Below, one piece after another: positions 2,891 through 17,324 of a stretch of 64,000 bases of DNA. Every line of letters starts with the position of its first letter. Position 1 is the first letter of the stretch. The notes beneath the pieces were generated by a model. The model ran no database searches. It was not told the DNA's origin and saw nothing but the letters and a program-made list of their open reading frames with translations. The position numbers and the translations under genes were made by a program. This DNA is from Sphingomonas sp. (GTDB lineage Bacteria; Pseudomonadota; Alphaproteobacteria; Sphingomonadales; Sphingomonadaceae), in NCBI RefSeq assembly GCF_004799495.1, contig NZ_SSMY01000005.1, forward strand, positions 1-64,000. Direction: 5' to 3'.

Positions 2891-3963
2891 CAGCCCAGGC
2901 CTTTGGCGATCACCGGCCCCATCGTGTTGGCGAGCCATAGCGGCAGTTTCTTCCACACCGCGACCTGCAGCCGGTATTTGGGGCTCATCGGGTTCATTTC
3001 GCGTGGGCGTTCGCCCGCCGCGACGCGTTTCGCATAGCGCAGCGGCACGCCCTCGAACCCCCAATTCTTCTTGAACGCGGCGACCCCGGTGCCAGCCTTC
3101 GATCGCCCGAAATCGTACCGCGTGCAGCCTTTGTTGGCGCGCGCATGCCGCATCAGTTCGTAATAGAGCCGGTCGTTGGCCTTGAGCGCCCGCGCCTCGC
3201 GCGTGCCGCCGCCCCAGAACGGATAGACGGTGCCGTTGAGATAAAGGCTGAACACCGATGCGTGCGGCGTGCCCTTGTGGCTGATGGTGACCACATCGGC
3301 ACGGTCGCCGAGTTCCTTCGCCACCTCGCGAAACAGCTTCGCCGGGAACACCGGCGTGCCGAGGTTGCGGACGCTTTCCGAAAACACCGTGTAGTGCATC
3401 GCGAGGTCGTTCGGCCAGTTGCCGATGGCGACCTGCAGATCGCCGTCGAGCGACTTTCGCACCTCGGCGCGCTGCTTGCGCGGGATCGCGAGCAGTTCGG
3501 CCTCGTCGTCCTTCGCCAGATCGCGCGAGAAGCCGAGATAGGTCGTTTCGTCGACGATCCACCCCTGCCCCGGCGCCGGGCCGCCGCGCAGTTCGAGGCT
3601 GGGGCAGCCGAGCTTTTCCGCCAGCACCCAAGCCGACGCCGCCAGCGCTTCGGCCACCGCGTCGCGCCGCGTCAGGATGCCGCCATCGACCGCGAACCCG
3701 ATCGACACCAGCGCCTTGCCGAACAAGGGCGAGCGGATTTCGGTGAGCGGCAGCACGCCCGCGATCTCGCCGTCGGCCTGCTCGGCGATCAGGCAATGCG
3801 CGGTCTGGCCGCAGGCGCGCGCGACCGCGACGTTCCAGCCGGCCAGGTGGAACGGCGTCGCATCGGGATGCGCCCGCACATAGTCGTCGATCCGCGCCCG
3901 CGTCGCGGGATCGGTCAGGTCCGCCGGGACGATCGCGACCAGGGTGGAGATGGGCGCGTTCAT
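2890..3963 (-). CDS. FemAB-like XrtA/PEP-CTERM-associated protein
   Basis: This 357-residue protein has the GNAT-like double fold of the FemAB/peptidoglycan-bridge aminoacyltransferase superfamily. The start MNAPISTLVAIVPADLTD fits the exosortase-associated family. The second GNAT half is recognisable from VFSLYLNGTVYPFWGGGT and YELMRHARANKGCTRYDFGRSK. Family members elsewhere move amino acids from aminoacyl-tRNA; in XrtA loci the acceptor is unknown, and a role in decorating the exopolysaccharide is inference. It overlaps the deacetylase gene upstream by 4 nt and abuts the glycosyltransferase downstream, placing it inside one operon. Confidence 0.85.
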   Translation of the reverse strand: MNAPISTLVAIVPADLTDPATRARIDDYVRAHPDATPFHLAGWNVAVARACGQTAHCLIAEQADGEIAGVLPLTEIRSPLFGKALVSIGFAVDGGILTRRDAVAEALAASAWVLAEKLGCPSLELRGGPAPGQGWIVDETTYLGFSRDLAKDDEAELLAIPRKQRAEVRKSLDGDLQVAIGNWPNDLAMHYTVFSESVRNLGTPVFPAKLFREVAKELGDRADVVTISHKGTPHASVFSLYLNGTVYPFWGGGTREARALKANDRLYYELMRHARANKGCTRYDFGRSKAGTGVAAFKKNWGFEGVPLRYAKRVAAGERPREMNPMSPKYRLQVAVWKKLPLWLANTMGPVIAKGLG

Positions 3964-4799
3964 GACAGCCGCTTTGCTTCGGCCGCGACGACCGCATCGA
4001 CCCGGCCCCAATCGTGCCGCGACACCAGCCCGCGCAATTTGCCCGCCATCGCGCCGAGCCGGCTGTAATGCCGCAGCCGCGACTTGAGCGGTGCGCGCGC
4101 GACGCGCGGCTGGTCGGGATCGACCTCCCACGGATGGAAATAGAACACCGCCGGGCGCGCTTCGCCGTTCGCGCGCGCGATTGCGGCATCGGTGATCGAC
4201 GCAGGGAACAGCCGAAAGAACCCGCCGCCCGTCGTGATCGGTTTCCCCGCCACGCTGCCGAGCGTGATCGGCAATTCGATCAAATCCGACCCCGCGACGG
4301 GCCGATAGGCGTGCTTCGGCGCGTCGGCCCAGCCATAATGGTCGTGCGCGAGCGGCGCGACACTCGATGAGTAACGATAGCCCTCTTCGGCCAATACCTG
4401 ATGCGCCCACGGCGTGCGCCGATCGATCGAGAAGCTCGGCGCGCGATAGCCGGTTACCTTCTGCCCCGACGCATTCTCCAGCGCGACGCGCGCGCGCTTC
4501 AAATCCGCGCGAAAGGCATCGACAGTGAAGGTGAACACGCGATCATGGTCCCAGCCATGGCTCGCCACCTCATGCCCCTCGTCGGCGATGCGGCGGATTA
4601 GCGCAGGATAGCGTTCCGCCACCCAGCCGAGCGTGAAGAACGTCGCCTTCACTCCGCTCTCGCCGAACAGGTCGAGCACCTTGCCGGTGTTATATTCGAC
4701 GCGGCTGCCCAGGCCGTCCCAATCGCTCTTCGCGATCACGCGTTCGAACGCGCCGACCTGGAACCATTCCTCGACGTCGACCGACAGGCCGTTCAGCAC
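3960..4799 (-). CDS. XrtA system polysaccharide deacetylase (NodB/DUF3473 type)
   Basis: This 279-residue protein is a NodB-fold deacetylase that should remove N-acetyl groups from a polysaccharide. The metal/catalytic pieces are visible: SVDVEEWFQ near the N-terminus (catalytic and metal Asp), SHGWDHDRVF (the H-x3-H-type metal motif) and RAPSFSID. The C-terminal FYFHPWEVDPDQPR is typical of the DUF3473 extension of exosortase-linked deacetylases. No signal peptide is seen, so it probably acts in the cytoplasm. It is 18 nt after the ATPase gene and overlaps the FemAB gene by 4 nt. Confidence 0.9.
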   Translation of the reverse strand: MLNGLSVDVEEWFQVGAFERVIAKSDWDGLGSRVEYNTGKVLDLFGESGVKATFFTLGWVAERYPALIRRIADEGHEVASHGWDHDRVFTFTVDAFRADLKRARVALENASGQKVTGYRAPSFSIDRRTPWAHQVLAEEGYRYSSSVAPLAHDHYGWADAPKHAYRPVAGSDLIELPITLGSVAGKPITTGGGFFRLFPASITDAAIARANGEARPAVFYFHPWEVDPDQPRVARAPLKSRLRHYSRLGAMAGKLRGLVSRHDWGRVDAVVAAEAKRLS

Positions 4800-4817
4800 G
4801 GTGTCCTCCTCGGGGCG

Positions 4818-5855
4818 TCAGGCCGCGCGGCCGCCGCGCGCGGCCGCCTCGTTACCCTCTACCCAATCGACCAGCAACGCCAGCACGCGGCGCAACGCGG
4901 CATCCTGTTCCTCCAGCCGCGCCTCGATCGCGGCGAAGCGGTCGGGCGACACCGTGACGGCGTCGTTGGCGGGGCGCGACATCGGCAGCGGCTCGGCAAC
5001 GGGCTGGGCCGACGGCGACGGCAACGGCAAGTGAACCACCGGCATGTCGCCCGCGATGTCCGCCGCGACCAGATCGACGGTGCGGCCGTCGATCACGTCG
5101 ATCTTCTCGATCGCGCCATGCAGCAGCACGCGCGCTGCCAACTGGTTGAGCCGGCGCGGCACGCCGTCCGACCCGCGATACAGCGCGGCGAGCGCTTCCT
5201 GCGTGAAATCGGGGCGGCCCTGCCAGCCGGCGAGCGACAGGCGGTGCGCCATGTACGGCTCGACTTCCTCGGGTCCCATCGGGTCGAGGTGATGCACCGC
5301 GATCACGCGCTGGCGAAGCTGTTCGAGCCGGTCGGAGCCGTTGAGCGCCGCGCGGAACTCGGGCTGGCCGAGCAACACGATCTGCAACAGCGCGTGTCCG
5401 CCCGCCTGGAAGTTGGACAACATGCGCAATTCCTCGAGCGCGCCGGTGTGCAGCGCCTGCGCCTCGTCGACGATCAGCAAGGTGCGCCGCCCGGTGCGCG
5501 CCATCGCGTGCAACCCGCGCTCGATCGCCGTCAGCAGCTGCGCCTTGGCGAGGCCGGCGCTGTCGACACCCAGCCCGTCCGCGACCATCCGCAACAAGTC
5601 GTCGGCATCGATCTGGGTCGACACCAGCTTGATCACGTGCAGCCGTTCGCGGTCGATCGTCGCCATCAGGTGCCCGACGAGCGTCGTCTTGCCGGCGCCG
5701 ACATCGCCGGTGATGACGATGAACCCCTCGCCCTGACTCAGGCCATAGCCGAGATAGGCCATCGCCTTGCGGTGCGTGGCGGTATCGAACCAGAATTTCG
5801 GATCGGGCGTCAGCGCGAACGGGCGTTCGCTCAATCCGTAATGGTCTTGATGCAT
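4818..5855 (-). CDS. XrtA-associated AAA/GspA-like ATPase (TIGR03015 type)
   Basis: This 345-residue ATPase has Walker A GDVGAGKT at about residues 50-57 and Walker B LLIVDEAQ. It begins MHQDHYGLSERPFALTPDPK, characteristic of ExeA/GspA-type ATPases. An ATG 9 nt upstream (5864) is possible, but the GAGG ribosome-binding site is better spaced for 5855. The C-terminal tail after about residue 270 is Pro/Ala-rich and low complexity, ending in a short predicted helix. It follows the outer-membrane protein gene by 11 nt. By analogy with GspA it may help assemble the envelope export machine; that is inference. Confidence 0.87.
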   Translation of the reverse strand: MHQDHYGLSERPFALTPDPKFWFDTATHRKAMAYLGYGLSQGEGFIVITGDVGAGKTTLVGHLMATIDRERLHVIKLVSTQIDADDLLRMVADGLGVDSAGLAKAQLLTAIERGLHAMARTGRRTLLIVDEAQALHTGALEELRMLSNFQAGGHALLQIVLLGQPEFRAALNGSDRLEQLRQRVIAVHHLDPMGPEEVEPYMAHRLSLAGWQGRPDFTQEALAALYRGSDGVPRRLNQLAARVLLHGAIEKIDVIDGRTVDLVAADIAGDMPVVHLPLPSPSAQPVAEPLPMSRPANDAVTVSPDRFAAIEARLEEQDAALRRVLALLVDWVEGNEAAARGGRAA

Positions 5856-5866
5856 CGTCACCATCC

Positions 5867-7492
5867 TCAGAACTGATACCGCGCGCCGAGCGTCGCCTGC
5901 GCCTGCGTCTGGTCGTTCTGGCCGTCCTGGCTGAACGTATAGACCCCGACCGACGCGGTCGTGCCGAGCCGTCCGAAGCTGCGCGAGAGTGACCCTGTCC
6001 CTCCCAGGCTCAGGATGCCGGGCGCCAACCCGCTGTCGTAATAATTGGCGAACAGGTCGCCGCTGAACGACGTCCGCGCGCCGATCGCCCGCGAATAGAA
6101 GAATTGCGCGTAATAGCTGTCGTCGCTGACGCCGTTGATCACGACGCCCGGGCTTTGCGGCGCGTAGAATTTGCGCGTGGCATAGCCGGCGCCGAAGCCC
6201 ATCGACGTGCTGCCGCGCGTCAGGCTGATCACGCCGTCGACTCCACGCGCGCGATACGTCGCGTTGGACACCGACTGGAACACCGAATTGAGGCACCCGC
6301 CCGTGGCGCCGCCGCCCGTAGTACCAAACGTGCAGCCGCTGAACTGCTGCATCAGCAGGTCGCGCGTCGCGGTGAATTCCTTGGGCAGGCCGCGGATACC
6401 GCGCTGCAACTGGGTGCCGAACGTCTCGACATCGTCATACACGCCGACCTGGAGCCCGACCCCGGCGCGCGGCGCGTAGCTGAGCGATCCGGTATAGGTC
6501 CACGAATCGTAGCGCCGACCGACCCGCGCCTCCAACGTGGTGCGCGGGCTGGGACGCCACAGCACGCCGGCGTCCCAATAGATGCCGTCGGTATTGTAGG
6601 CGATCCGCCGCGGCGAGTTGGGATCGGTGACGAAGCGGCCGTGGCGGTCGAGCACCGGATTGCCGCCCGCGTCGACCAGCGGGTCGCGCGAGCTGGACTT
6701 GATCTTCTCGTACCCGACGCCGCCTTCGACCGCGAAGGTGCCGCTCAACGGCTGAACGACATCGCCGCGCGCGTAGAGCCCGTCGAAACGGCCGTCGAGC
6801 TGCCCCTGGTCCTCGCGCGTCCACCCCACGCTCAGCGTCGCGCCGAACGGGGCCACCGTGCCCGACTTGAACCCGACCGACGCGGTCGCGAGCTGAGTCG
6901 TCGAATCGTCGAAATAATCGAGCGACGGGCTGCCCGGGGCGACCCCGGTCGAATTCGGCTGAGTCACCTTGGTGTAGCCGAACAGGTACGACGCGTTGAT
7001 CCCGATCGGGCCGCGCCCAGTCGACAGCGTCGGGCCGATATAGGCCGAATAGACGTTGCTGACGTTGCGGTCGTTGTTGCCGAAGAAGATCGGCGCCGCG
7101 CCGCGGATATCGGTCCGCGAGCGAGTCGCGATCCCGCCCGCGTCGATCGACAGCCCGCGCGCGACGCGCACCTGCGCGTTGGCGAGGCCTGTCACGACAT
7201 CGGCATCGCTCGACCTTTTGTCGTAGGCGAACTGATGCTCGTAGCGCGCGCTGATATTGACCGACACGCGCTGCGTCTCGACCGACGCATCGACCCCGGC
7301 CGCGGCCGAGGTGTAGGTCAGCACGTCGTCCGACTGCGAATCCCAGGTCAGCACCTGGTCGAGCTCGATATACGGAGTGATGCTCACCCGCCGCTGGCTC
7401 TTCGCCGCCCCTGCATCGCGGTCCTGCGCGACCGCCGGCGTCGCCGCCAGCAGCATCGCGAGCGCGACCCCGCCTGAAATCCTGCCGATCAT
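5867..7492 (-). CDS. XrtA/PEP-CTERM-associated outer-membrane beta-barrel (TIGR03016 type)
   Basis: This 541-residue protein has a signal peptide (MIGRISGGVALAMLLAATPA, cleavage after AVA-Q). The rest is alternating polar and aromatic strands ending in Phe (GARYQF), the usual C-terminal signature of outer-membrane barrels. It matches the PEP-CTERM-associated outer-membrane family by context and composition. It is probably a channel or scaffold for exopolysaccharide export, but function is not established. The ATG overlaps the stop of the tyrosine kinase gene upstream by 4 nt, which fixes the start. Confidence 0.85.
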   Translation of the reverse strand: MIGRISGGVALAMLLAATPAVAQDRDAGAAKSQRRVSITPYIELDQVLTWDSQSDDVLTYTSAAAGVDASVETQRVSVNISARYEHQFAYDKRSSDADVVTGLANAQVRVARGLSIDAGGIATRSRTDIRGAAPIFFGNNDRNVSNVYSAYIGPTLSTGRGPIGINASYLFGYTKVTQPNSTGVAPGSPSLDYFDDSTTQLATASVGFKSGTVAPFGATLSVGWTREDQGQLDGRFDGLYARGDVVQPLSGTFAVEGGVGYEKIKSSSRDPLVDAGGNPVLDRHGRFVTDPNSPRRIAYNTDGIYWDAGVLWRPSPRTTLEARVGRRYDSWTYTGSLSYAPRAGVGLQVGVYDDVETFGTQLQRGIRGLPKEFTATRDLLMQQFSGCTFGTTGGGATGGCLNSVFQSVSNATYRARGVDGVISLTRGSTSMGFGAGYATRKFYAPQSPGVVINGVSDDSYYAQFFYSRAIGARTSFSGDLFANYYDSGLAPGILSLGGTGSLSRSFGRLGTTASVGVYTFSQDGQNDQTQAQATLGARYQF

Positions 7493-8445
7493 TGGCCCTC
7501 GTCCTCCTGGCCGTAATAGCTGCCGAAGCGTGCCCCCCCCGGGGCGAACGAAACGCTGTTCAACAAAAGCTGGATGTGCTCGCACCCGTCGAGCCGGTGC
7601 ACCGCGTCGCGGATGTCGCTTTCGGGCGTGCGGTCGGCACGCACCACGAGCATCACTTGCCCGACGTGCAGCGCCAGCACCGACGCCGGGGATGCGGCCA
7701 GCGCGGGCGGCGAATCGAAGATCACGACACGTTCGGGATCGGCGGCGAGCAACTGCGCGATCAGTTCGGGCGTGCGCCCGCTCGCGATCAACTCGGTGTC
7801 GGAGGTCGACCCGGCGCCCGCGGGCAACAGGCTGAGATTGGGGATGTCGGTACCGACGATGCACGGCTCCACGTCGATCGCCGGATCGCCTAGCGCGTCC
7901 ATCAGGCCGGGACCGTCGGACACGCCGAGGCGGTTCATCACGCCCGGCTTGGCGAAATCGGCATCGACCAGCAGTACGCGCAGGTCGCGCTCCGCCGCCA
8001 TCGAGATCGCGAGATTGACCGCGCAATAGGTTTTGCCGTCGCCCGGCTTGGGCGAACAGACGAGCATCGTGCGCGCCTTGGCCGGATCGCTTGCGGCGAG
8101 GCGGCGTGCGGTCAGCAGCAACTCGCGCTTGGCGAGCCGGAATTCCTCGGCGAGCACGCCGACCGGGGCGCCGGGCACGAGCAGGCCGTTGTCGGCCAGC
8201 AGCGCGCGGTCGATCTCGGCGTGGCGGCTCGGGACCGGCGGCGCGCTGCGCGGCACGGGCGCGAACGCGACCGGCGACGGCGCGACCGGAGCGGCTGCCG
8301 CCGGCGCGCTGATCGGCCTGGCCACCGGCGCGGGCGGCAAATCGTCGAGCGGGATCGGCGCGCTGCGGAAATGCGCCGAGAAATCGTACGCTTCTGCCGC
8401 GCGTTCGAGCAGCGAACCCTGTTTGTTGATGATCGGCTTGTTCAT
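7489..8445 (-). CDS. XrtA-associated tyrosine autokinase (CpsD/CapB family)
   Basis: This 318-residue cytoplasmic BY-kinase has Walker A SPKPGDGKT at residues 131-139 and Walker A' VDADF at about 160-164. A Pro/Ala-rich N-terminal segment (about 37-80) precedes the kinase core. The C-terminus carries only a Tyr pair (GSYYGQE) instead of a long Tyr cluster. Such kinases pair with a Wzz-like membrane partner, here the next gene upstream, which overlaps by 4 nt, to control exopolysaccharide chain length and export by cycles of autophosphorylation. Confidence 0.9.
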   Translation of the reverse strand: MNKPIINKQGSLLERAAEAYDFSAHFRSAPIPLDDLPPAPVARPISAPAAAAPVAPSPVAFAPVPRSAPPVPSRHAEIDRALLADNGLLVPGAPVGVLAEEFRLAKRELLLTARRLAASDPAKARTMLVCSPKPGDGKTYCAVNLAISMAAERDLRVLLVDADFAKPGVMNRLGVSDGPGLMDALGDPAIDVEPCIVGTDIPNLSLLPAGAGSTSDTELIASGRTPELIAQLLAADPERVVIFDSPPALAASPASVLALHVGQVMLVVRADRTPESDIRDAVHRLDGCEHIQLLLNSVSFAPGGARFGSYYGQEDEGQ

Positions 8446-9953
8446 GCCGCGAGCCCCCGCATCAGCATTTCGACGCCCAGCAGCCCGACGAACGCGACCG
8501 CCAGCCCTCCGGCCGCCCCCGCGAACAGCACGAGCTTGCGGCGGCGCAAGGCCGCATCGGCGCGCGACACGCGCTCGCTAATCGATCCGATCACGGGCAG
8601 CCCGGTCGCCTTTTCGAGACGCCCCGCGGTCGCGAAGGTCGGCTTCAACTGCGCCACGCCGAACGCCGCGGCGAGGCCGCCGCCGATCGCCAGGATCAGC
8701 ACGCCGAACAGCAGCAACGGACGGTTGGGCGCGGCCGGCGCGCGCGGTGCCGCCGGCGGGTCGATCGTGCGGAACTTGATCGCATCGGTCTGCGCCTGCG
8801 CCTCCGCGCGGACGCGCAATTCCTCGCGGTCGCTCAGCACCTTATCGTATTGGTCCTTGAGCACCTGATAATCGCGCTCGATCTGGCTCTGCTCGCTGGC
8901 GACCGCGGGGTCGCCGTTCAGCTTCGCCATGATCGCGTTCATGTCGCCCTGCAGCTGGCTTTTCCGCGCGCTAAGCGCCGCGACCGCCGCCTGCTTGTCG
9001 GCCTGCATCGACTTGAGCGACAGATAGACCGGGTTAGGCGTGCCGCCCCCGCCCGCGCCGATCGGCTCGCTCGCCGCCGCGGCGCGCGCCGAGGCGAGCT
9101 GGCTCTTGAGCGCGACGACGTCGGGATGGCTTTCGGTATAGCCCCGCGCCCGCGCATCGGCGAGCTGGCCTTCGATCGCCGCCAGCCGCGCGCGCGCCGG
9201 GCCACCGGCGACACCGTTCGCGCCCGCGACGGTCTGCTGCGTCCCCGCCATCTGGCCGTTGATCGCCGCGAGGCTGGTCTGCGCGCCGGCCAGGTCGCCG
9301 TCGATCTGCGCCATCTGCGTGCGCGCCTGCGACATTCGGTCCTGCAACGTGCCGCTCCCGGGCAGCGCGCCGAGATATTGCGTCTGGAACGCAGTGCGCT
9401 TCGCATCGGCGTCGGCCAGCCGGTTCTGCATCTGCTCGACCTGGCTGTCGAGGAAGCGCAACGTCGTCTGCGTGTCGTTGCGGTCGTCCGACAGATTCTG
9501 GTCGACGAAGATCGAGATCAGCTTGTCGACGATCTGCTTGGCGAGCTTGGGGCTCGAGGCCGACGCCGTGATCTGGAACAAATTGTTCTGCTGCGCGACG
9601 ATCTGGATGTTGGTCTGCAGCCCCGCGACGCGGTCGGCGATGTCCTGCGGGCTCGACACCGTGTTGGCGAGGTCGGTGCCGCGCACGACCTTTTCCAGAT
9701 TGACCGCGCTGGTCAGCGTCTGGCGGATCGTATCGACATCGTTCTGCTGTTCCTGCGCGTTGATGCCGACCTTCGCCGACAGCACTTGCCCCATCTGGAC
9801 GAACACGCGCGCCTTGGCTTCGTAGCGGTTGGGCAGCTGGCTGACGACCAGCCAGCCGAGGATCGCAATCCCCCACGCCACCGCCAGCGCGAGCCAGCGG
9901 CGTTGCCAGATCGAGTGCATTGCGACGCGAAGTTCGTCGTACAGGCCGTTCAC
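8442..9953 (-). CDS. XrtA system polysaccharide chain-length determinant (Wzz/GumC-like)
   Basis: This 503-residue inner-membrane protein has one hydrophobic helix near residues 18-38, a long periplasmic region rich in coiled coil (about 150-400) and a second membrane segment near 475-495. This is the Wzz/PCP topology. The RYEAKARVFVQMGQVLS stretch after the first helix is the usual Wzz N-terminal domain, and [14 protein letters not shown] before a C-terminal hydrophobic segment matches the Pro-rich motif. It should set chain length of the exopolysaccharide together with the neighbouring kinase. It overlaps the kinase gene by 4 nt and lies 15 nt after the export lipoprotein gene. Confidence 0.9.
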   Translation of the reverse strand: MNGLYDELRVAMHSIWQRRWLALAVAWGIAILGWLVVSQLPNRYEAKARVFVQMGQVLSAKVGINAQEQQNDVDTIRQTLTSAVNLEKVVRGTDLANTVSSPQDIADRVAGLQTNIQIVAQQNNLFQITASASSPKLAKQIVDKLISIFVDQNLSDDRNDTQTTLRFLDSQVEQMQNRLADADAKRTAFQTQYLGALPGSGTLQDRMSQARTQMAQIDGDLAGAQTSLAAINGQMAGTQQTVAGANGVAGGPARARLAAIEGQLADARARGYTESHPDVVALKSQLASARAAAASEPIGAGGGGTPNPVYLSLKSMQADKQAAVAALSARKSQLQGDMNAIMAKLNGDPAVASEQSQIERDYQVLKDQYDKVLSDREELRVRAEAQAQTDAIKFRTIDPPAAPRAPAAPNRPLLLFGVLILAIGGGLAAAFGVAQLKPTFATAGRLEKATGLPVIGSISERVSRADAALRRRKLVLFAGAAGGLAVAFVGLLGVEMLMRGLAA

Positions 9954-9968
9954 TGGTCCCGGCCTCCC

Positions 9969-10616
9969 TTAGAACATCGATTCGGGGATGATGATGACGT
10001 CGCCCGGCTCCAGCCGGACGTTGGCCGACGGGTCGCCGTTCTTCAGCAGCTTGCCGATCCGGATGTTGAATTCCTGCTGCTTGCCGGTATCGCGGTTGTA
10101 GCGGATCAGCCGCGCGCGGTTGCCCGCCGCGTACTGGTTGAGCCCGCCGACCGCGATCATCGCGTCGAGCAAAGTCATGTTGGCGCGATACGGCAGCGAC
10201 GCTGGCTTTTCGGTCGCGCCGACGATGCGGATCTGCTGGCTGAACGTGCTCTGCGCCGATTCGACGATGACCGAGACGATCGGGTCCTTGATGTAGGTCG
10301 ACAGCGCGATCTTCATGTCGTCGGCGAGCATCGCGGGGGTCTTGCCGACCGCGGGCATGTCGCTGACCAGCGGCGTGGTGATGCGGCCGTCGGGACGCAC
10401 CTGGACCTTCGCCGAGAGCTCGGGATTGCGCCACACGAAGATGCTGAGCTGGTCGAGCGGGCCGATGACATATTCCTCGCCCGGCTGCTCCTTCGCCGCG
10501 ACGAACGGCGCGGACGGCAGCGAGCCACGGTCGCCGCCACCGCCAAGGCACCCCGTCAGCGCGCTCGCGCTGACGCCGACGAGGGCCAACGCCCTGGAAA
10601 CATGCAAGAAACGCAT
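9969..10616 (-). CDS. XrtA system polysaccharide export lipoprotein (Wza-like)
   Basis: This 215-residue protein has a lipoprotein signal (LTGC, Cys23) followed by the polysaccharide biosynthesis/export domain: EEYVIGPLDQLSIFVWRNP and VRPDGRITTPLV, then a SLBB-like part with IRIVGATEKPA and VGGLNQYAAGNRARLIR. It should form the outer-membrane exit pore or its periplasmic ring. It is the first gene of the minus-strand export run, with ribosome-binding site GGAGG 6 nt before the ATG. The 103-nt gap upstream (10617-10719) is the likely promoter region for the operon; no promoter boxes are clear to me. Confidence 0.92.
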   Translation of the reverse strand: MRFLHVSRALALVGVSASALTGCLGGGGDRGSLPSAPFVAAKEQPGEEYVIGPLDQLSIFVWRNPELSAKVQVRPDGRITTPLVSDMPAVGKTPAMLADDMKIALSTYIKDPIVSVIVESAQSTFSQQIRIVGATEKPASLPYRANMTLLDAMIAVGGLNQYAAGNRARLIRYNRDTGKQQEFNIRIGKLLKNGDPSANVRLEPGDVIIIPESMF

Positions 10617-10719: not shown

Positions 10720-11895
10720 TTACGCGATCGCACCGACCAGCAGTTCGGCGGGGCGCGCGTGCCCGAGGAACTCCCACGGCGACGCGGTCAGGCCGTAGGC
10801 GCCGGCCATGAACACCGCAATGACGTCACCCGGTTGGGCGACGGGCAGCTCGACCTGGTCGGCGAGGCGGTCGAGCGGGGTGCAGAGTGGACCGACGACG
10901 GTCACCGTCTCAGCCGGGGCGCCGGACGCGGCGGTGACGACGGCGAGTGGATAGTTGCGACGCACAACAGTGCCGAGGTTGCCGGTCGCTGCCAACTGAT
11001 GGTTGAGCCCGCCGTCGCACACCAAGAAGGTCTCGCCGCGGCTTACTTTCCTGTCGACGACGCGCGTGAAATACACGCCGGCCTCGCCGACCAGCCAGCG
11101 CCCGAGCTCGATCGCGAAGCGCGTGTCGGGAAATGATGCCAAACGCGGCACGAGTGCCGCGCCGATCGCCTCGACATCGACCGGCGCTTCACCCGGGAAA
11201 TAGGGAATGCCGAACCCGCCGCCCAGGTTGACGAGCGGCGGCGCGGCGCCCGCCTCGTCGGACAGCCGCGCGACGAGGTCGATCGTGTGCGCTTGGCTGT
11301 CGATGATCGCCTGCGCATCGAGCGCCTGCGACCCGGCAAACACGTGGAACCCCTGCCAGTCCGCCCCCGCCACTATCAGCCGCTTGACCAAGGCCGGCAC
11401 GCGGTCGGCATCGACCCCGAACGGCGACGCGCGCCCGCCCATCCGCATTCCCGATCCGCGCAGCTCGAACTCGGGGTTCACGCGCACCGCAAGCCGCGGC
11501 GTCTCCCCAATCTGCCCGGCGAAGGCGAGCGCACGATCGGCTTCGCCTTCGCTTTCGAGGTTGATCGTGATCCCGCTGCCGATTGCCATCGCCAGCTCGC
11601 CGTTGGTCTTGCCCGGCCCGGCAAAGCTGACCGGCTTGCCGTACATCGACACCCGCCCCGCTTCGCCGATCGACGCGGCGTCGAACCCGTCGACCAGCGG
11701 CGCCAGCGCCTCGAGCAGTGCGCCGAACGGATTGGCCTTCACGGCATAGTGGAGATCGATCCCAGGAAATGCTGCGCGGAACCGGGCGATGCGGTCGGCG
11801 ACGATGCTGGTGTGATAGACGAACGCGGGCGTCGCGTCGGGAATGGCCAGCGCCAGATCGTCGAAATCGCGCGGGATTGCGCCCATCGGCTTCAT
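10720..11895 (-). CDS. PLP-dependent decarboxylase, exosortase A-associated
   Basis: This 391-residue fold-type III (alanine racemase-like) decarboxylase is related to diaminopimelate and ornithine decarboxylases. The PLP lysine is Lys53 in YAVKANPFG. The glycine-rich phosphate loop GGGFGIPYFPGE and the later CDGGLNHQLA and GPLCTPLDRL motifs are in the usual order. It overlaps the acyl-CoA ligase gene upstream by 4 nt, an arrangement known from XrtA loci (TIGR03099 with TIGR03098). The amino acid substrate is unknown. The product may be loaded on the adjacent carrier protein, which is inference. Confidence 0.9.
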   Translation of the reverse strand: MKPMGAIPRDFDDLALAIPDATPAFVYHTSIVADRIARFRAAFPGIDLHYAVKANPFGALLEALAPLVDGFDAASIGEAGRVSMYGKPVSFAGPGKTNGELAMAIGSGITINLESEGEADRALAFAGQIGETPRLAVRVNPEFELRGSGMRMGGRASPFGVDADRVPALVKRLIVAGADWQGFHVFAGSQALDAQAIIDSQAHTIDLVARLSDEAGAAPPLVNLGGGFGIPYFPGEAPVDVEAIGAALVPRLASFPDTRFAIELGRWLVGEAGVYFTRVVDRKVSRGETFLVCDGGLNHQLAATGNLGTVVRRNYPLAVVTAASGAPAETVTVVGPLCTPLDRLADQVELPVAQPGDVIAVFMAGAYGLTASPWEFLGHARPAELLVGAIA

Positions 11896-13379
11896 GACGT
11901 CACTTCCCCCTTCAGCCGCGCGCGGTCGAACTTTCCGTTGGCGTTACGCGGCAATTCCGCGCGCCAATCATAGCGTGCAGGCTGCATGAAGTTCGGTAGC
12001 TCGCGGCGCAAGCGTTCGCGCAAAGCTCCCTCGGCCGATCCGTCCCCCTTCGCGACGACCAGAATCGCCTGGCCGAGCTTGTCGTCGGGTACGCCGAGCG
12101 CCACCGCCTCGCTCGTCTCGCCGCCAGCGGTGACCGCCTCCTCGATCTCGGTCGGGCTGATCCGGTTGCCCGCCGACTTTATCATCTCGTCGTCGCGCCC
12201 GACGAAGCGGAGCAGCCCGTCGGCGTCCGCGACCACGGTATCGCCTGACCACACCGCCATTCCACCCGATTTCGCCCAATCCGGCGCCGGCCGGAAGCGC
12301 ACCGCCGTGCGATCGTCGTCGCGCCAATAGCCCTGCGCGACCAGCGGGCCGGCGTGGACCAGCTCGCCCGCCTCGCCCGGTCCAGCGCGGCCGCCATCGG
12401 GGCGGACGACCATCACCTCCGCGAACGGCACCGCGCGGCCGATCGAGTCGGGGTGATCGGCGACCAGCGCCGCGTCGAGACAGGTCGAGCGGAATGCTTC
12501 GGTCAGTCCGTACATCGGATAGAGATCGGCTTGCGGGAAACGATCGCGTAAACCGGCTATCATCTGCCGCGTCAGCGCACCGCCAGAATTTGTCACCCTC
12601 TTCAAGCTATTTAGCGATATTTCCTGTAGATCGATGTCAAGTAGTTGCACCCACAGGGGCGGCACGCCGGCCAGCGTCGTGATCCGCTCGCGCTCGATCG
12701 CGAGATACACGTCGCGCGGCAGGAGATAGTCGAACGGCACGACGCTCGCCCCGGCGGCCCAGGTCGAAAACAGCTGGTTCTGCCCGTAGTCGAAGCTGAG
12801 CGGCAGCACGCCGAGCACGCGGTCGGAGGGCGTGAGCTTGAGATAATGCGCCACGCTGATCGCGCCGAGCCACAGGTTCGCGTGGCTGAGCATCACGCCC
12901 TTGGGCCGCCCGGTCGATCCGGAGGTGTAGAGCAACGCCACGAGCGCATTCGGATCGGCTTCGGACGGCGGCAAACCCGGCCCGTCGAGCGGTGGCTCGT
13001 CGGTCACGACGCGGCAAGCGACGTCATCCAGCGTTTCCGCTCGCGCGGCCTGCGTCAGCAACAACGCCGCACCGCTGTCCGCCAGAATATGCTGGACCTG
13101 CAACTGCTTGAGCAACGGATTGATCGGCACATGCACCAATCCCGCGCGCGCCGCCGCGAGCGGCATCAGGCAGGCGATCCGCGTCTTGGGCAGCCATGTC
13201 GCGACGCGATCGCCCGGTGCTAGCCGTTGCCCCGCCAGCCACGCGGCCAGCGCGCCGACCGCTGCCTCCAGCCCGGCATAATCGAGCGCGCCCTCGCGCG
13301 TCACCAGCGCCACATTGCCCGGCGCCCCACACAACGTCAGGTGATCGATCGGGCGCGGCACGGGATCGAGCGGGATCAT
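11892..13379 (-). CDS. Acyl-CoA ligase (AMP-forming), exosortase A-associated
   Basis: This 495-residue ANL-superfamily adenylating enzyme has the P-loop LLYTSGSTGRPKGVMLSH, the A5-type motif MYGLTEAF and the hinge/A8 region with SGDTV, GRDDEMIKSAGNRISPTEIE. The invariant C-terminal lysine is in NGKFDR. The ATG at 13379 (MIPLDPVPRPIDHL) has an AGGG 5 nt upstream; a longer open frame upstream is less likely. It probably activates an acid and passes it to the divergent acyl carrier protein. A short internal stretch (12589-12647) is strikingly AT-rich. Confidence 0.9.
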   Translation of the reverse strand: MIPLDPVPRPIDHLTLCGAPGNVALVTREGALDYAGLEAAVGALAAWLAGQRLAPGDRVATWLPKTRIACLMPLAAARAGLVHVPINPLLKQLQVQHILADSGAALLLTQAARAETLDDVACRVVTDEPPLDGPGLPPSEADPNALVALLYTSGSTGRPKGVMLSHANLWLGAISVAHYLKLTPSDRVLGVLPLSFDYGQNQLFSTWAAGASVVPFDYLLPRDVYLAIERERITTLAGVPPLWVQLLDIDLQEISLNSLKRVTNSGGALTRQMIAGLRDRFPQADLYPMYGLTEAFRSTCLDAALVADHPDSIGRAVPFAEVMVVRPDGGRAGPGEAGELVHAGPLVAQGYWRDDDRTAVRFRPAPDWAKSGGMAVWSGDTVVADADGLLRFVGRDDEMIKSAGNRISPTEIEEAVTAGGETSEAVALGVPDDKLGQAILVVAKGDGSAEGALRERLRRELPNFMQPARYDWRAELPRNANGKFDRARLKGEVTS

Positions 13380-13459
13380 GGCCGCCCTGATAGCCGTCCC
13401 GCGCGGCTTCCCCAACATACTTCCCAACGCGGACCGGCACAGGTAACGCGCGGGACACG

Positions 13460-13732
13460 ATGACCACGCGCCATGCCCCTTCCGTCGACACTGTCGTCCG
13501 TACCGTCCTGAAGGATGTGCTCGCGCTCAGCGACAAGCGCGTCGCGGCGTTCGACGATGCGACGCCGCTGTTCGGCAGCCTGCCCGAGCTCGATTCGATG
13601 GCGGTGGCGGGCGTGCTGACCGAGCTCGAAGACCGGCTCGGCATCCTGATCGAGGACGACGAAGTCGACGGCGAAATGCTTGAAACGTTCGGCGCGTTGC
13701 GCCGCTTCGCCGAGCACAAGGTGAAGGGTTGA
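13460..13732 (+). CDS. Acyl carrier protein-like, XrtA locus
   Basis: This 90-residue protein has the four-helix carrier fold by composition. The phosphopantetheine-attachment Ser46 is in PELDSMAV, the usual D-S-[LM] context. It diverges from the acyl-CoA ligase across an 80-nt gap and is the first of three plus-strand genes. Its stop overlaps the TTG start of hydrolase 2. It should carry an acyl or aminoacyl group made by the ligase and/or PLP decarboxylase. The cargo is unknown. Confidence 0.87.
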   Translation: MTTRHAPSVDTVVRTVLKDVLALSDKRVAAFDDATPLFGSLPELDSMAVAGVLTELEDRLGILIEDDEVDGEMLETFGALRRFAEHKVKG

Positions 13733-14421
13733 GCGGCTTCTACAATTGGGCGGGCGGGCGCGAGGCGATGACGCGCTTCGGCCCCGCGGCGGGGCCGGCC
13801 GTGCTACTCGCGCTGCCGCTGTTCGAGGAAGCCAATCGCACGCGCACCTTCGCGGTCAGATTGCTACGGCACCTCGCCGTGCGCGGGATCGGCGGCGCGC
13901 TGCCCGACCTGCCTGGGCAGAACGAAAGCCCGGTCGCGACCGAGCACGCCATGCTCGCCGGCTGGCGCGCAGCGTTCGCGGCGGCGGTCGCATCAATCGG
14001 GTGCCCGGTCCACAGCGTGACGATGCGCGGCGGGGCGCTTATCGATCACGACGCCCAAGTCGTCAGCCGCTGGCAGCTGGCGCCCGCCAAGGGCGAGGCA
14101 TTGATCCGCGAGCTGTTCCGCACCGCGCAGGCCAGGGGCGAGCCCATCAAGATCGAACTCGACGCCTGGAGCGACGAAGGCGGCCCGGTGACGATCGCCG
14201 GCAACCGCATCGGTAGGCCGCTGTTGCGCGACATCAACGCCGCCGATTGCGTGCGCGACGGCAAGGTGCGCGTCGTGCGGCTCGACACCGACCCTGCGGT
14301 TGCCGACCGCAAGGTAGAGGGCACGCCGTTGTGGCGGCGCAGCGAACCGGGCGACGACCCGGCGCTCGCCGCGCTGCTGGCCGACGACATCGCCGACTGG
14401 ATCGCGAAATGCGCGAGCTGA
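13729..14421 (+). CDS. Exosortase A-associated hydrolase 2-like protein
   Basis: This 230-residue protein resembles the TIGR03101 alpha/beta hydrolases of XrtA loci. The start is TTG: AAGG lies 7 nt before it and TTGA overlaps the ACP stop, indicating coupling. An internal ATG at 13768 is the fallback. The fold is suggested by VLLALPLFEEANRTRTF and GIGGALPDLPGQNESP (oxyanion/strand regions). The position of the nucleophile elbow reads VTMRGGAL, with no G-x-S-x-G. It may be a non-catalytic relative or use other chemistry. Confidence is good for family, low for activity. Confidence 0.75.
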   Translation: MSGFYNWAGGREAMTRFGPAAGPAVLLALPLFEEANRTRTFAVRLLRHLAVRGIGGALPDLPGQNESPVATEHAMLAGWRAAFAAAVASIGCPVHSVTMRGGALIDHDAQVVSRWQLAPAKGEALIRELFRTAQARGEPIKIELDAWSDEGGPVTIAGNRIGRPLLRDINAADCVRDGKVRVVRLDTDPAVADRKVEGTPLWRRSEPGDDPALAALLADDIADWIAKCAS

Positions 14422-15173
14422 TTTCCTTCCCGTGCGAGGGCGACACGCTCGCCGGAACGCTCGACGACGCGCCGCGCAGCACCGGTCTGCTGATCGTGTC
14501 CGGCGGCAACGAAATCCGCTGCGGCGCGCATCGCGGCATGGCGCTGCTCGCGGCAGAGCTGGCCGGGGGCGGCGTACCCGTGTTCCGCTTCGACCGGCGC
14601 GGGATCGGCGATTCGGACGGACACAACCACGGCTATGCCGAAAGCGGGCCGGACATCGCCGCCGCCGTGCAATCGTTCCGTACGCTCGCGCCGCAGGTGA
14701 AGCGCATCGTCGGGTTCGGCAATTGCGACGCCGCGACCGCGCTCGCGCTGTTTCATCGCGACGCCGGGATCGAGTCGCTGGTGCTCGCCAACCCTTGGGT
14801 CGGTGAAGAGCATGACGGGCTGCCGCCAGCCGAAGCGATCCGCTCGCATTATGCCGACCGGGTGAAAGACCCGAAGCAATGGCTACGGCTCGCGACCGGT
14901 AGCATCAATATCGGCAAGGTGTTCAAAGGCTTGCGCAAGGCTTCTACCGCGCTGTCTGACACCGGCAATCCGATCGTCGAGCGGATGGCAGCAGCGCTGG
15001 AGGGCACACCGCATCGTTTCCTGCTGGCGAACCGCGATAACACCGCGATCCGCTTCGCCGGCGCGTGGCCGTATGGCGGCGACAAGCGCGAATGCTCGAC
15101 CGACAGCCACAGCTTCGCGCGGCCCGGCGACGCTGCGTGGCTGGCAGCGCAGTTGAGGGAAGCGCTGAGCTAA
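14409..15173 (+). CDS. Exosortase A-associated hydrolase 1
   Basis: This 254-residue alpha/beta hydrolase matches the TIGR03100 type: IVSGGNEIRCGAHRG near the N-terminus, FRFDRRGIGDSDG and VLANPWVGEE. The expected nucleophile elbow is GFGNCDAAT, so Cys/Asn replace the usual Ser. A terminal His is available in STDSHSF. The ATG overlaps the hydrolase 2 gene by 13 nt. It is the last gene of the ACP operon, followed by a strong hairpin. A role in releasing or editing the ACP-bound group is inference. Confidence 0.85.
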   Translation: MRELISFPCEGDTLAGTLDDAPRSTGLLIVSGGNEIRCGAHRGMALLAAELAGGGVPVFRFDRRGIGDSDGHNHGYAESGPDIAAAVQSFRTLAPQVKRIVGFGNCDAATALALFHRDAGIESLVLANPWVGEEHDGLPPAEAIRSHYADRVKDPKQWLRLATGSINIGKVFKGLRKASTALSDTGNPIVERMAAALEGTPHRFLLANRDNTAIRFAGAWPYGGDKRECSTDSHSFARPGDAAWLAAQLREALS

Positions 15174-15208: not shown

Positions 15209-16177
15209 TTATTCCGCCGCCTCGGCGACCTTTTCGAAATCGGCCTCGGCCAGGAACTTCTCGGCATCCAGCGCCGCCATGCAGCCCGTCCCTGCGGCGG
15301 TCACCGCCTGGCGATAGACCTTGTCCATCACGTCGCCGCACGCGAACACGCCGGGGACGCTGGTGCGCGTCGACCCGGTCTCGACCTCGATATAATGGTC
15401 GGCATCGAGCTTCAGATGCCCGCGAAACAGTTCGGTCGCGGGATGATGCCCGATCGCGACGAACCCGCCCTCGACATCGACCCGCGACAGTTCCCCGGTC
15501 ACCGTGTCGCGCAGCTCGAGCGCGACGAGCCCCGCCGTCCCGCCGCCGTCGACGAAGCTTTCGACTTCCTTGTTCCAGATCACCTTGATCTTGTCGTTGG
15601 CGTGGAGCCTTTCCTGGAGGATCTTCTCGGCGCGCAAGCTGTCGCGCCGATGGATCAGCGTCACGTCGGGCGAATGGTTGGTGAGGTACAGCGCCTCCTC
15701 GACCGCGGTGTTGCCGCCACCGATCACCGCGACCTTCTTGCCGCGATAGAAGAAGCCGTCGCACGTCGCACAGGCGCTGACGCCCTTCCCCTTCAACGCT
15801 TCCTCGCTGTCGAGCCCGAGCCACTTGGCCTGCGCGCCCGTCGCGATCACCAGCACCTCGCCCTCGTAGACATCGCCGCCGTCGCCGACGAGGCGGAAAG
15901 GACGCTTGGTCAAGTCGACCTCGACGATCGTGTCCCACATCATCCGCGTGCCGACATGCTCGGCCTGCGCCTGCATCTCCTGCATCAGCCACGGGCCCTG
16001 GATGACCTCGCGGAAGCCCGGATAATTCTCGACATCGGTGGTGGTGGTCAGCTGGCCGCCGGGCTGGATGCCCTGCACGACGATCGGCGAGAGGCCCGCG
16101 CGCGCGCCGTAGATTGCGGCGCTGAGGCCGGCGGGGCCGGAGCCGAGGATAAGCATGCGAGTGGTGTGCGTGGTCAT
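15209..16177 (-). CDS. trxB: Thioredoxin-disulfide reductase
   Basis: This 322-residue flavoprotein reduces thioredoxin with NADPH. FAD-binding GSGPAGLSAAIYGARAG is at the N-terminus. The redox-active pair is Cys136-Ala-Thr-Cys139 followed by Asp140. The NADPH-binding GGGNTAVEEALYL and the C-terminal FAD motif GVFACGDVMDKVYRQA are present. Length is normal for the bacterial low-Mr enzyme. It stands alone on the minus strand. Confidence 0.97.
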   Translation of the reverse strand: MTTHTTRMLILGSGPAGLSAAIYGARAGLSPIVVQGIQPGGQLTTTTDVENYPGFREVIQGPWLMQEMQAQAEHVGTRMMWDTIVEVDLTKRPFRLVGDGGDVYEGEVLVIATGAQAKWLGLDSEEALKGKGVSACATCDGFFYRGKKVAVIGGGNTAVEEALYLTNHSPDVTLIHRRDSLRAEKILQERLHANDKIKVIWNKEVESFVDGGGTAGLVALELRDTVTGELSRVDVEGGFVAIGHHPATELFRGHLKLDADHYIEVETGSTRTSVPGVFACGDVMDKVYRQAVTAAGTGCMAALDAEKFLAEADFEKVAEAAE

Positions 16178-16237: not shown

Positions 16238-16319
16238 ACAAGGTGATGGCGGCGCGTAGAATTGCTTGCCTGACCCCAAGCGCCGCAACACGATCCGCCT
16301 TCCCAACGAGGAGACGATC

Positions 16320-17324
16320 GTGCTGCGCTTTCGGTTACCGCTGCTCGGCGCGCTAGCGCTGACGAGCATAGCGTGCGGCGCTTCCCCTGCACCGCAAGCG
16401 GACAAGCAATTCCCGCCCGCCAAGAACGAGCCGCCGGTCCGCACCACCGGCGTTTGGCAACCCGCGGCGGGGCTGACGCAGCAGCCGATCTGGCCGGGCA
16501 GCCCGCCCGACGGGACGCTCAACCCGCAGCCGCCCGAAAGCGTCGATACCTACCAGGAGCCGCCCGAATTCGGCGGCAAATCCTATGCCGTCAACGACAT
16601 CGCCATCCCGACGATGACGGTCATGCCGCCCAAGGGCCGCAACACCGGCACTGCCGTGATTGTCTTCCCCGGCGGCGGCTTCCAGAAGGTGTTCGTCACG
16701 CTGGAGGGGACTGAAATCTGCGACTGGCTGGTCGCAAGAGGCATCACCTGCATCGTGTCCAAATATCGCGCGCCGGGCGGCAACGATTATTGGAATGCAG
16801 CGCTCAGGCGCCAGATCACGCCCAAAATCCCGCGCGCATTGCAGGATGCACAGCGCACGATCCGGCTGGTGCGGTCCAAGGCGAAGGAACTCGGCATCGA
16901 CCCGAACAGGATCGGCGTGATGGGCTTCTCGGCAGGCGGCTATCTCGTCGCGCAGACCAGCAACATCCTGACGCCCACGTACAAGCCGGTCGACGCAATC
17001 GACAGCATCAGCAGCCGCCCCGACTTCGCCGTCGCGCTCTATCCCGGCCATATCTGCCGCGATGACGGCAAGACGTTCGATCCCAAGCTGCCGGTCATCA
17101 AGACCGCTCCGCCGACCTTCATCGCGCAGGCATGGGACGACCCGACCGACCCGATCTGCAACAGCCTGATGTACGCCAGCGCGCTCGATAAAGCGGGTGT
17201 ATCGACGGAGGTTCATTTGTTCGCGAAGGGGGGTCACGCCTTCGGACTGCGAAAGAGGGGCCAACCGGTAGGCGAGTGGCCAGAGCTGGTCGAGCGGTGG
17301 CTGAACCAGATCGGCATGATGTAA
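16320..17324 (+). CDS. Alpha/beta hydrolase (esterase), predicted lipoprotein
   Basis: This is a 334-residue BD-FAE/esterase-like hydrolase. I chose the GTG at 16320 because GAGGAG lies 6 nt upstream and the resulting N-terminus is a lipoprotein signal (LTSIAC, Cys19). A longer ATG-initiated frame would ruin the signal. The core shows VIVFPGGGFQ (oxyanion loop), the nucleophile GFSAGG, and GGHAFGLR with the catalytic His. The domain resembles acetylxylan-esterase/lipase-type enzymes. Substrate is unknown. It is a single gene divergent from trxB. Confidence 0.85.
   Translation: MLRFRLPLLGALALTSIACGASPAPQADKQFPPAKNEPPVRTTGVWQPAAGLTQQPIWPGSPPDGTLNPQPPESVDTYQEPPEFGGKSYAVNDIAIPTMTVMPPKGRNTGTAVIVFPGGGFQKVFVTLEGTEICDWLVARGITCIVSKYRAPGGNDYWNAALRRQITPKIPRALQDAQRTIRLVRSKAKELGIDPNRIGVMGFSAGGYLVAQTSNILTPTYKPVDAIDSISSRPDFAVALYPGHICRDDGKTFDPKLPVIKTAPPTFIAQAWDDPTDPICNSLMYASALDKAGVSTEVHLFAKGGHAFGLRKRGQPVGEWPELVERWLNQIGMM

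Follow-up and report, generated by a model that had tools for sequence, protein, structure and literature searches.

A carrier-protein gene trio beside the XrtA locus of a Sphingomonas as a candidate source of beta-alanine for coenzyme A

Three proteins of the AFC-BC11 pathway, AfcQ, AfcK and AfcP, turn L-aspartate into a carrier-bound beta-alanyl thioester in vitro, and activation of L-aspartate has been measured for the ligase of that pathway (PMC12186527; this and the other articles cited are represented here by parts of their text, to which our statements about them are limited). For the adenylating enzyme VinN the pocket residues have been described, including Asp230, which binds the amino group (PMC11253843, PMC7756342), and the printed equivalent of VinN Arg331 in AfcQ is Arg311 (PMC12186527). 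The beta-alanine-forming enzyme DVU0867 was demonstrated by rescue of an Escherichia coli panD mutant (PMC10102598). Here we analyse a comparable set of three genes, for a ligase, a carrier protein and a pyridoxal phosphate (PLP) decarboxylase, that adjoins the exosortase A (XrtA) locus of Sphingomonas sp. (assembly GCF_004799495.1, contig NZ_SSMY01000005.1, positions 1-64,000, forward strand; the whole of this 64,000-nucleotide stretch is called the window).

In the route that we propose, the ligase would adenylate the side-chain carboxyl of L-aspartate and load it onto the phosphopantetheine arm of the carrier protein, and the decarboxylase would then remove the alpha-carboxyl with PLP to leave beta-alanyl-S-carrier. 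Judged from sequence, this passage from L-aspartate through aspartyl-S-carrier to beta-alanyl-S-carrier is likely. The main use in Sphingomonadaceae would be to stand in for PanD, with free beta-alanine released for PanC to use on the way to pantothenate and coenzyme A, and we put the probability that the trio supplies beta-alanine for this purpose in the family at about 0.6. Three findings make that role the most likely one, namely that the decarboxylase and PanD exclude each other, that the decarboxylase is absent from the good assemblies in which PanC is missing and that the trio is kept without XrtA. The two hydrolase genes beside the trio fall mainly to the XrtA side and may draw on the same beta-alanyl thioester for the exopolysaccharide system.

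The trio and its predicted substrate

All five genes that the initial annotation placed at 10720-15173 are intact and lie there, and they form the two divergent units that it described, with likely start codons 80 bp apart. The decarboxylase and ligase make up the minus-strand unit, and the carrier protein and two hydrolase-like genes the plus-strand unit.

The decarboxylase (10720-11895, minus strand) scores 484.2 bits against TIGR03099, over the curated cutoff of 478.45, as expected of the PLP decarboxylase that had been claimed, and is predicted to decarboxylate carrier-bound aspartate. Its best solved relative is BtrK, at 224.8 bits versus 132.1 for the best diaminopimelate decarboxylase. 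The C-E-x-x-D motif of LysA contains a Glu that binds the far end of diaminopimelate; Thr339 (codon 10879-10881) takes that position here, BtrK likewise has Thr, and the LysA of 2p3e has Glu. Thr339 is kept in 114 of 114 relatives from three sets, and the LysA-like gene of the same genome has Glu; since Thr is also found in 18 of 18 lower-scoring relatives, the residue is no mark of this subfamily alone. In a tree built from 41 proteins, a branch with support of 100/99 has on one side all 23 decarboxylases labelled as such: 16 score over the family cutoff, the other 7 come from named loci and were unscored against it, and XrtA-less genomes are represented. Separate from these is a deep clade of BtrK-like decarboxylases (loci L058, L059, L060 and L067, genomes G001, G052, G180 and G033; handles in G and L denote genomes and loci throughout), a type that is frequent at 270-304 bits in the small-genome family f22, where PanD is also common.

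The ligase (11892-13379, minus strand) passes TIGR03098 with 607.6 bits (curated cutoff 592.35). It had been called an acyl-CoA ligase forming adenosine monophosphate; it is indeed an adenylating ligase of this family, but is better described as a VinN-like amino-acid adenylating enzyme whose predicted target is the side-chain carboxyl of L-aspartate. Most of the solved structures related to it are domains that adenylate amino acids, VinN included, with acyl and aryl acid ligases interspersed. When the pocket region of 151 residues was searched, VinN was the best solved chain at 43.3 bits and the best other scored 35.0, with only seven distinct solved sequences passing.

Residues are numbered here from base 13397, the likely start being the ATG at 13377-13379. 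The two stretches that contain Asp203, Ser271 and Arg303 align with VinN free of gaps, and three one-residue gaps fall between the stretches. By this alignment Asp203 (codon 12789-12791, minus strand) is the counterpart of the amino-group ligand Asp230, Ser271 (12585-12587, minus) that of Ser299, and Arg303 (12489-12491, minus), which is proposed to bind the alpha-carboxylate, that of Arg331. Relatives were taken from sphingomonad loci (80 named, picked by decarboxylase similarity) and from three loci outside the family. Among them the Asp203 column has Asp in 111 of 111 ligases that cover it (two further ligases in the three sets do not), the 111 ligases covering the Ser271 column divide into 100 with Ser and 11 with Thr, and the Arg303 column has Arg in 112 of 112, with one further ligase not covering. 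VinN Lys330 and Phe231 are not kept, Phe302 and Tyr204 being found instead, and the Tyr204 column has Ala or Phe in a few relatives. VinN-type enzymes are described as having a beta13-beta14 loop one residue shorter than that of alpha-amino acid domains. In our alignments this loop is gap-free against VinN and one residue short of LgrA module 2, while the gaps against module 1 of LgrA fall in another pattern. Because of the two substitutions, and because the shorter loop shows against LgrA module 2 only, we term the enzyme VinN-like and not a VinN orthologue.

The carrier protein (13460-13732, plus strand), an acyl or aminoacyl carrier, scores 22.0 bits against PF00550 (cutoff 20.8). The proper attachment serine attributed to it is present as Ser46 (13595-13597), and BLAST in related loci recovered 106 carriers, every one of which keeps it. 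By profile, 2lki is the nearest solved chain (95.9 bits); we take it to be a Nitrosomonas carrier protein from structural genomics.

Distribution of PanD, PanC and XrtA

We scanned a phylum sample of 219 Pseudomonadota genomes, drawn evenly, and a family sample of 239 Sphingomonadaceae genomes. The decarboxylase serves as the marker for the whole trio in all genome counts, the ligase and carrier having been checked in the loci that were read.

PanD occurs in 133 of the 219 phylum genomes but in none of the 11 whose decarboxylase is over cutoff, four of which lie outside the family (G019, G102, G107 and G126). Related decarboxylases just below the cutoff (405-456 bits), used as a control, were found in eight genomes, four of them with PanD. 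In Sphingomonadaceae PanD was found in 0 of 200 genomes with the decarboxylase versus 8 of the 39 others (Fisher p 2.6e-7), so that co-occurrence, which a replacement of PanD should not show, was absent from both samples. The PanD-bearing members of the family belong to five genera, and genus g164 has three genomes with the decarboxylase and a fourth with PanD instead. A rough genus-level comparison of these five with the 91 other genera, 12 of which include a genome that clearly lacks the decarboxylase, gives p 1e-4. The genome of the window, 99.97% complete, has PanC and lacks PanD.

PanC is absent from 14 of the 239 Sphingomonadaceae. Restricting the count to the 227 good genomes leaves nine that lack PanC, all without a decarboxylase over cutoff (p 1e-8); the three PanC-less genomes that do have the decarboxylase have completeness values of 66-70%. 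Six PanD loci were retrieved, and in four of them PanC is at most about 1 kb from PanD.

Uracil degradation was rejected as a general source of beta-alanine, on the one route enzyme tested: dihydropyrimidinase (TIGR02033) is over its cutoff of 393.25 in 0 of 239 genomes, two of which score 344.9 and 265.3 bits, and passes in 2 of 14 control genomes. As far as the part represented here goes, Table A2 of PMC7142369 has Sphingomonadales with PanC and without PanD, several of them also without PYD3 or GAD. Sphingomonas paucimobilis NBRC 13935 and Novosphingobium capsulatum NBRC 12533, given in that table with PanC and without ADC, PYD3 or GAD, both carry the whole trio (L097 and L122).

For XrtA, the phylum sample gave 11 genomes with the decarboxylase over cutoff, 11 with XrtA and 9 with both; G107 and G155 have the decarboxylase without XrtA over cutoff. 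In the family sample the decarboxylase is over cutoff in 200 genomes and XrtA in 156, with both in 150, the decarboxylase only in 50, XrtA only in 6 (4 of which have partial decarboxylase matches) and neither in 33. The initial annotation had let its proposal stand or fall with linkage to xrtA in other genomes; XrtA over cutoff accompanies the decarboxylase in 150 of the 200 decarboxylase genomes and is missing from the other 50, so that the refutation it named is borne out in part. In sphingomonads, TIGR03098 and TIGR03099 are not strictly XrtA-bound.

Twenty-four loci from these 50 genomes were read, a non-random choice among those with listed coordinates; the ligase stands beside the decarboxylase in 24 of 24 and the carrier in 22. 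Four (L160, L161, L172 and L173) were set apart, as they retain XrtA-side genes or are cut off by the end of a contig. In the other 20, which have no XrtA core in the stretch read (L170 keeps the ATPase, the kinase and a fragment, and L158 has a weak ATPase-like match), ligase and decarboxylase are present in 20, the carrier in 19 and the hydrolases, within the stretch read, in none. In 13 of the 20 the carrier gene has trxB beside it as in the window, so that the trio stayed put while its neighbours were lost. All 64 full-length named loci have the trio, with the hydrolases and the XrtA export gene in 49, the hydrolases alone in 5, the export gene alone in 4 and neither in 6. From the distribution across loci we conclude that the hydrolases follow XrtA as a tendency and not as a rule, and that the trio is a separate module.

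XrtA neighbours and other readings of the locus

The contiguous XrtA locus occupies 147-10616 (minus strand; family profile scans). The five genes had been described as next to XrtA; they adjoin this locus, but the XrtA gene itself (147-1697) is at the far end, about 9 kb off. Its members include XrtA, a glycosyltransferase (TIGR03087), FemAB (TIGR03019), a deacetylase (TIGR03006), a chain-length protein (TIGR03007) and an export protein (TIGR03027). The ATPase (TIGR03015) scores 319.9 bits against a cutoff of 324.5, the outer-membrane protein (TIGR03016) is a weak match and the tyrosine kinase (TIGR03018) is below cutoff. On the other side of the five genes lies trxB (15209-16177, minus strand; TIGR01292, 385 bits), a conserved flank by which this chromosomal position can be recognised in many genomes that lack XrtA, and past it, at 16266-17324, an esterase related to the pectin acetylesterase PaeX (161.7 bits, cutoff 550).

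Two exosortase-linked hydrolases had been claimed, and one of them stands. Hydrolase 1 (14409-15173, plus strand) passes TIGR03100 with 199.1 bits (cutoff 168.45) and has a nucleophile elbow whose Cys (codon 14724-14726) is shared by 69 of 71 relatives. This gene is missing from those loci read that have the trio by itself. The hydrolase 2-like protein (13729-14421, plus strand) scores 19.1 bits against TIGR03101, far below the cutoff of 202.75. (The family scans used slightly different gene starts, 13397 for the ligase and 14421 for hydrolase 1.) The predicted model of the hydrolase 2-like protein has an alpha/beta-hydrolase fold (predicted local distance difference test score, pLDDT, 93.5), and its nucleophile position is Arg100 (14026-14028), invariant in 29 aligned sequences including that of the window. 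This Arg-bearing protein may serve hydrolase 1, which has the Cys, as a partner or as a regulatory subunit. In G126 (L045:5905-7746) a hydrolase 2-like part (142.7 bits, below cutoff) and a hydrolase 1 part (170.6, over) share one frame of 613 residues, which suggests that the two act as a pair.

Loci away from the typical sphingomonad arrangement were also read. G019 has, in a row, the carrier, hydrolase 2 (TIGR03101, 274 bits), hydrolase 1 and an acyltransferase of TIGR03694 (126 bits, over cutoff) at L036:11995-14955, with PrsK and PrsR nearby; the row may be the cassette in a more complete form, one whose product would be an N-acyl beta-alanyl compound. The trio of G126 lies near PrsT. In G107, a genome without an XrtA match, the trio is next to glycosyltransferase-like genes (L037:4128-10485), which suggests that the trio may be tied to polysaccharide even in the absence of XrtA. 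In G155 it stands beside a deacetylase and an ATPase, with no XrtA or hydrolases nearby. Given the neighbours in G019, G126 and G107, the trio outside sphingomonads is likely to have had an earlier function in making a surface component or a lipid, and sphingomonads themselves may use it in both ways.

Among the alternatives, the one that fares best, though we consider it unlikely, is that the trio makes beta-alanyl-S-carrier and that hydrolase 1 or FemAB transfers the beta-alanyl moiety to amines that the deacetylase has exposed on the XrtA exopolysaccharide. The trio is contiguous with the XrtA locus in the window, where FemAB and the deacetylase are both present; an XrtA export gene is near the trio in 53 of the 64 full-length named loci; PrsK/PrsR, PrsT and glycosyltransferases are its neighbours in G019, G126 and G107; and 150 of the 156 XrtA genomes in the family sample have the decarboxylase over cutoff. 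The same family sample, however, includes the 50 genomes that keep the decarboxylase without XrtA over cutoff, 20 loci retain ligase and decarboxylase where the XrtA core and hydrolases are gone, and neither exclusion of PanD nor absence along with PanC is predicted by such a modification. It was an acyl or aminoacyl modifier of the exopolysaccharide or of sorted proteins that the initial annotation had in mind. The relationships to VinN and BtrK back the aminoacyl-carrier part of that idea, but a modifier as the main role is unsupported, since the ligase and decarboxylase are kept in the 20 loci that lack the XrtA core and the hydrolases, and the decarboxylase mirrors the absence of PanD and the presence of PanC.

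Less probable again is that the trio primes the synthesis of a lipid or peptide built on N-acyl beta-alanine, in the manner of AFC-BC11 and the bolagladins, with TIGR03694 and the hydrolases as later steps. The AFC and bolagladin trios do feed N-acylation (PMC12186527, PMC7756342), and G019 has the carrier, both hydrolases and TIGR03694 in one row; against this, the scanned proteins of the window (part of it only) include no match to TIGR03694, core-less sphingomonad loci keep the trio without hydrolases, and the pattern of PanD and PanC is not predicted. That the genes are housekeeping enzymes, a diaminopimelate decarboxylase (LysA) and a fatty acyl-CoA ligase, whose models match too though below their cutoffs, is highly improbable, both identities having been rejected for the closeness to BtrK, for Thr339 where the separate LysA-like gene elsewhere in the genome has Glu, and for the VinN pocket residues.

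Several points weigh against a supply of beta-alanine for coenzyme A. The carrier needs a phosphopantetheine arm derived from coenzyme A, which makes the route circular, and no thioesterase recurring beside the trio was identified in the core-less loci, where neighbours were compared by homology and few are named. A fold search with the predicted ligase model (pLDDT 88.0) returned mixed adenylating enzymes, with VinN not among the 50 matches listed. The PanD and PanC tests are uncorrected for kinship, and related genomes are not independent data. Within Sphingomonadaceae, XrtA and the decarboxylase are positively associated, and outside sphingomonads the trio adjoins PEP-CTERM (exosortase) or glycosyltransferase (polysaccharide) genes. 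Outside the family, G007 and G015 have XrtA with neither an over-cutoff decarboxylase nor PanD, and the 19.5 kb of G102 that were read yielded no ligase. PanD is in any case often missing from Alphaproteobacteria, being present in 37 of 204 genomes in the part of PMC7142369 represented here, and a transaminase, AAM, which might make beta-alanine otherwise, is given there for NBRC 13935 and NBRC 12533. Our scan for beta-alanine sources covered the trio decarboxylase, PanD and TIGR02033.

To these points must be added that the trio is not found in every genome that has PanC and lacks PanD: in 16 of 239 (G230, G237, G239, G241, G278, G306, G318, G330, G346, G349, G379, G394, G404, G426, G442 and G443) there is no decarboxylase match beyond LysA level, and four further genomes have only partial matches. 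The 16 are likewise without an over-cutoff dihydropyrimidinase, and may have another source of beta-alanine, be auxotrophic or, in some cases, be incomplete as assemblies. Genus g140 has four small genomes without the decarboxylase, and one stretch of G241, from this genus, is 44.5% G+C, which we take to fit Zymomonas. Zymomonas mobilis, of the same group, is reported to be a pantothenate auxotroph for want of aspartate decarboxylase (PMC10370309).

Taken with these reservations, supply of beta-alanine for coenzyme A remains our preferred reading for Sphingomonadaceae, and a second, XrtA-linked use of the beta-alanyl thioester is possible, above all outside sphingomonads. Genes whose role was sought in cell-surface sugars alone thus probably help to make coenzyme A. 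The stronger statement, that in most Sphingomonadaceae the beta-alanine for vitamin B5 and coenzyme A is formed on a carrier protein dedicated to it, by an antibiotic-type adenylating enzyme and decarboxylase recruited from an exosortase cassette, we regard as evenly balanced. If true, it would add a third class of aspartate decarboxylation to primary metabolism, beside the pyruvoyl enzyme PanD and the PLP enzyme PanP, and the route would be partly self-feeding, the carrier's phosphopantetheine arm deriving from the cofactor being built.

The proposal gives a testable function to exosortase A-associated families whose models (TIGR03098, TIGR03099, TIGR03100 and TIGR03101) are typed only as hypothetical equivalogs, and a candidate answer to where sphingomonads obtain beta-alanine, the gap seen in the represented part of Table A2 of PMC7142369. 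It splits into two modules a locus that was first taken as one pathway, and by its prediction a knockout should show itself first as a vitamin auxotroph and not through a defect of the surface.

Comparison with known systems

The butirosin carrier BtrI is loaded by a non-homologous ligase. BtrK of that pathway (2j66, 7ru7) is the closest solved decarboxylase to ours and shares its C-T-P-x-D motif; it is named in PDB as acting on carrier-bound glutamate, and differs in this substrate, glutamyl-BtrI. Of the families TIGR03098, TIGR03099, TIGR03100 and TIGR03101, the window has passing members in the ligase, the decarboxylase and hydrolase 1, and its hydrolase 2 fails.

PanD, PanP and DVU0867 (PMC10102598) resemble the trio in the proposed end product, beta-alanine for PanC, but they act in one step on free aspartate, with neither adenosine triphosphate nor a carrier. 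VinN, VinL and VinO of vicenistatin biosynthesis (PMC11284099, PMC11253843) have the same three roles, VinN alone having been aligned here. They differ in the substrate, 3-methylaspartate, and in passing the product into a polyketide, and VinN differs in its Lys at 330 (Phe302 here) and Phe at 231 (Tyr204 here). In the open-access literature searched we found no statement that links the exosortase-associated trio to beta-alanine or to substitution of PanD; chemically, an enzyme set of a familiar kind would here be put to a new use. AfcQ, AfcK and AfcP of AFC-BC11 in Burkholderia, likened by description, share the VinN-type ligase with its key Arg, the lone carrier and the PLP decarboxylase, but they are part of a 25-gene cluster for an antifungal lipopeptide, whereas the trio described here can stand alone and its decarboxylase was not found with PanD in either genome sample.

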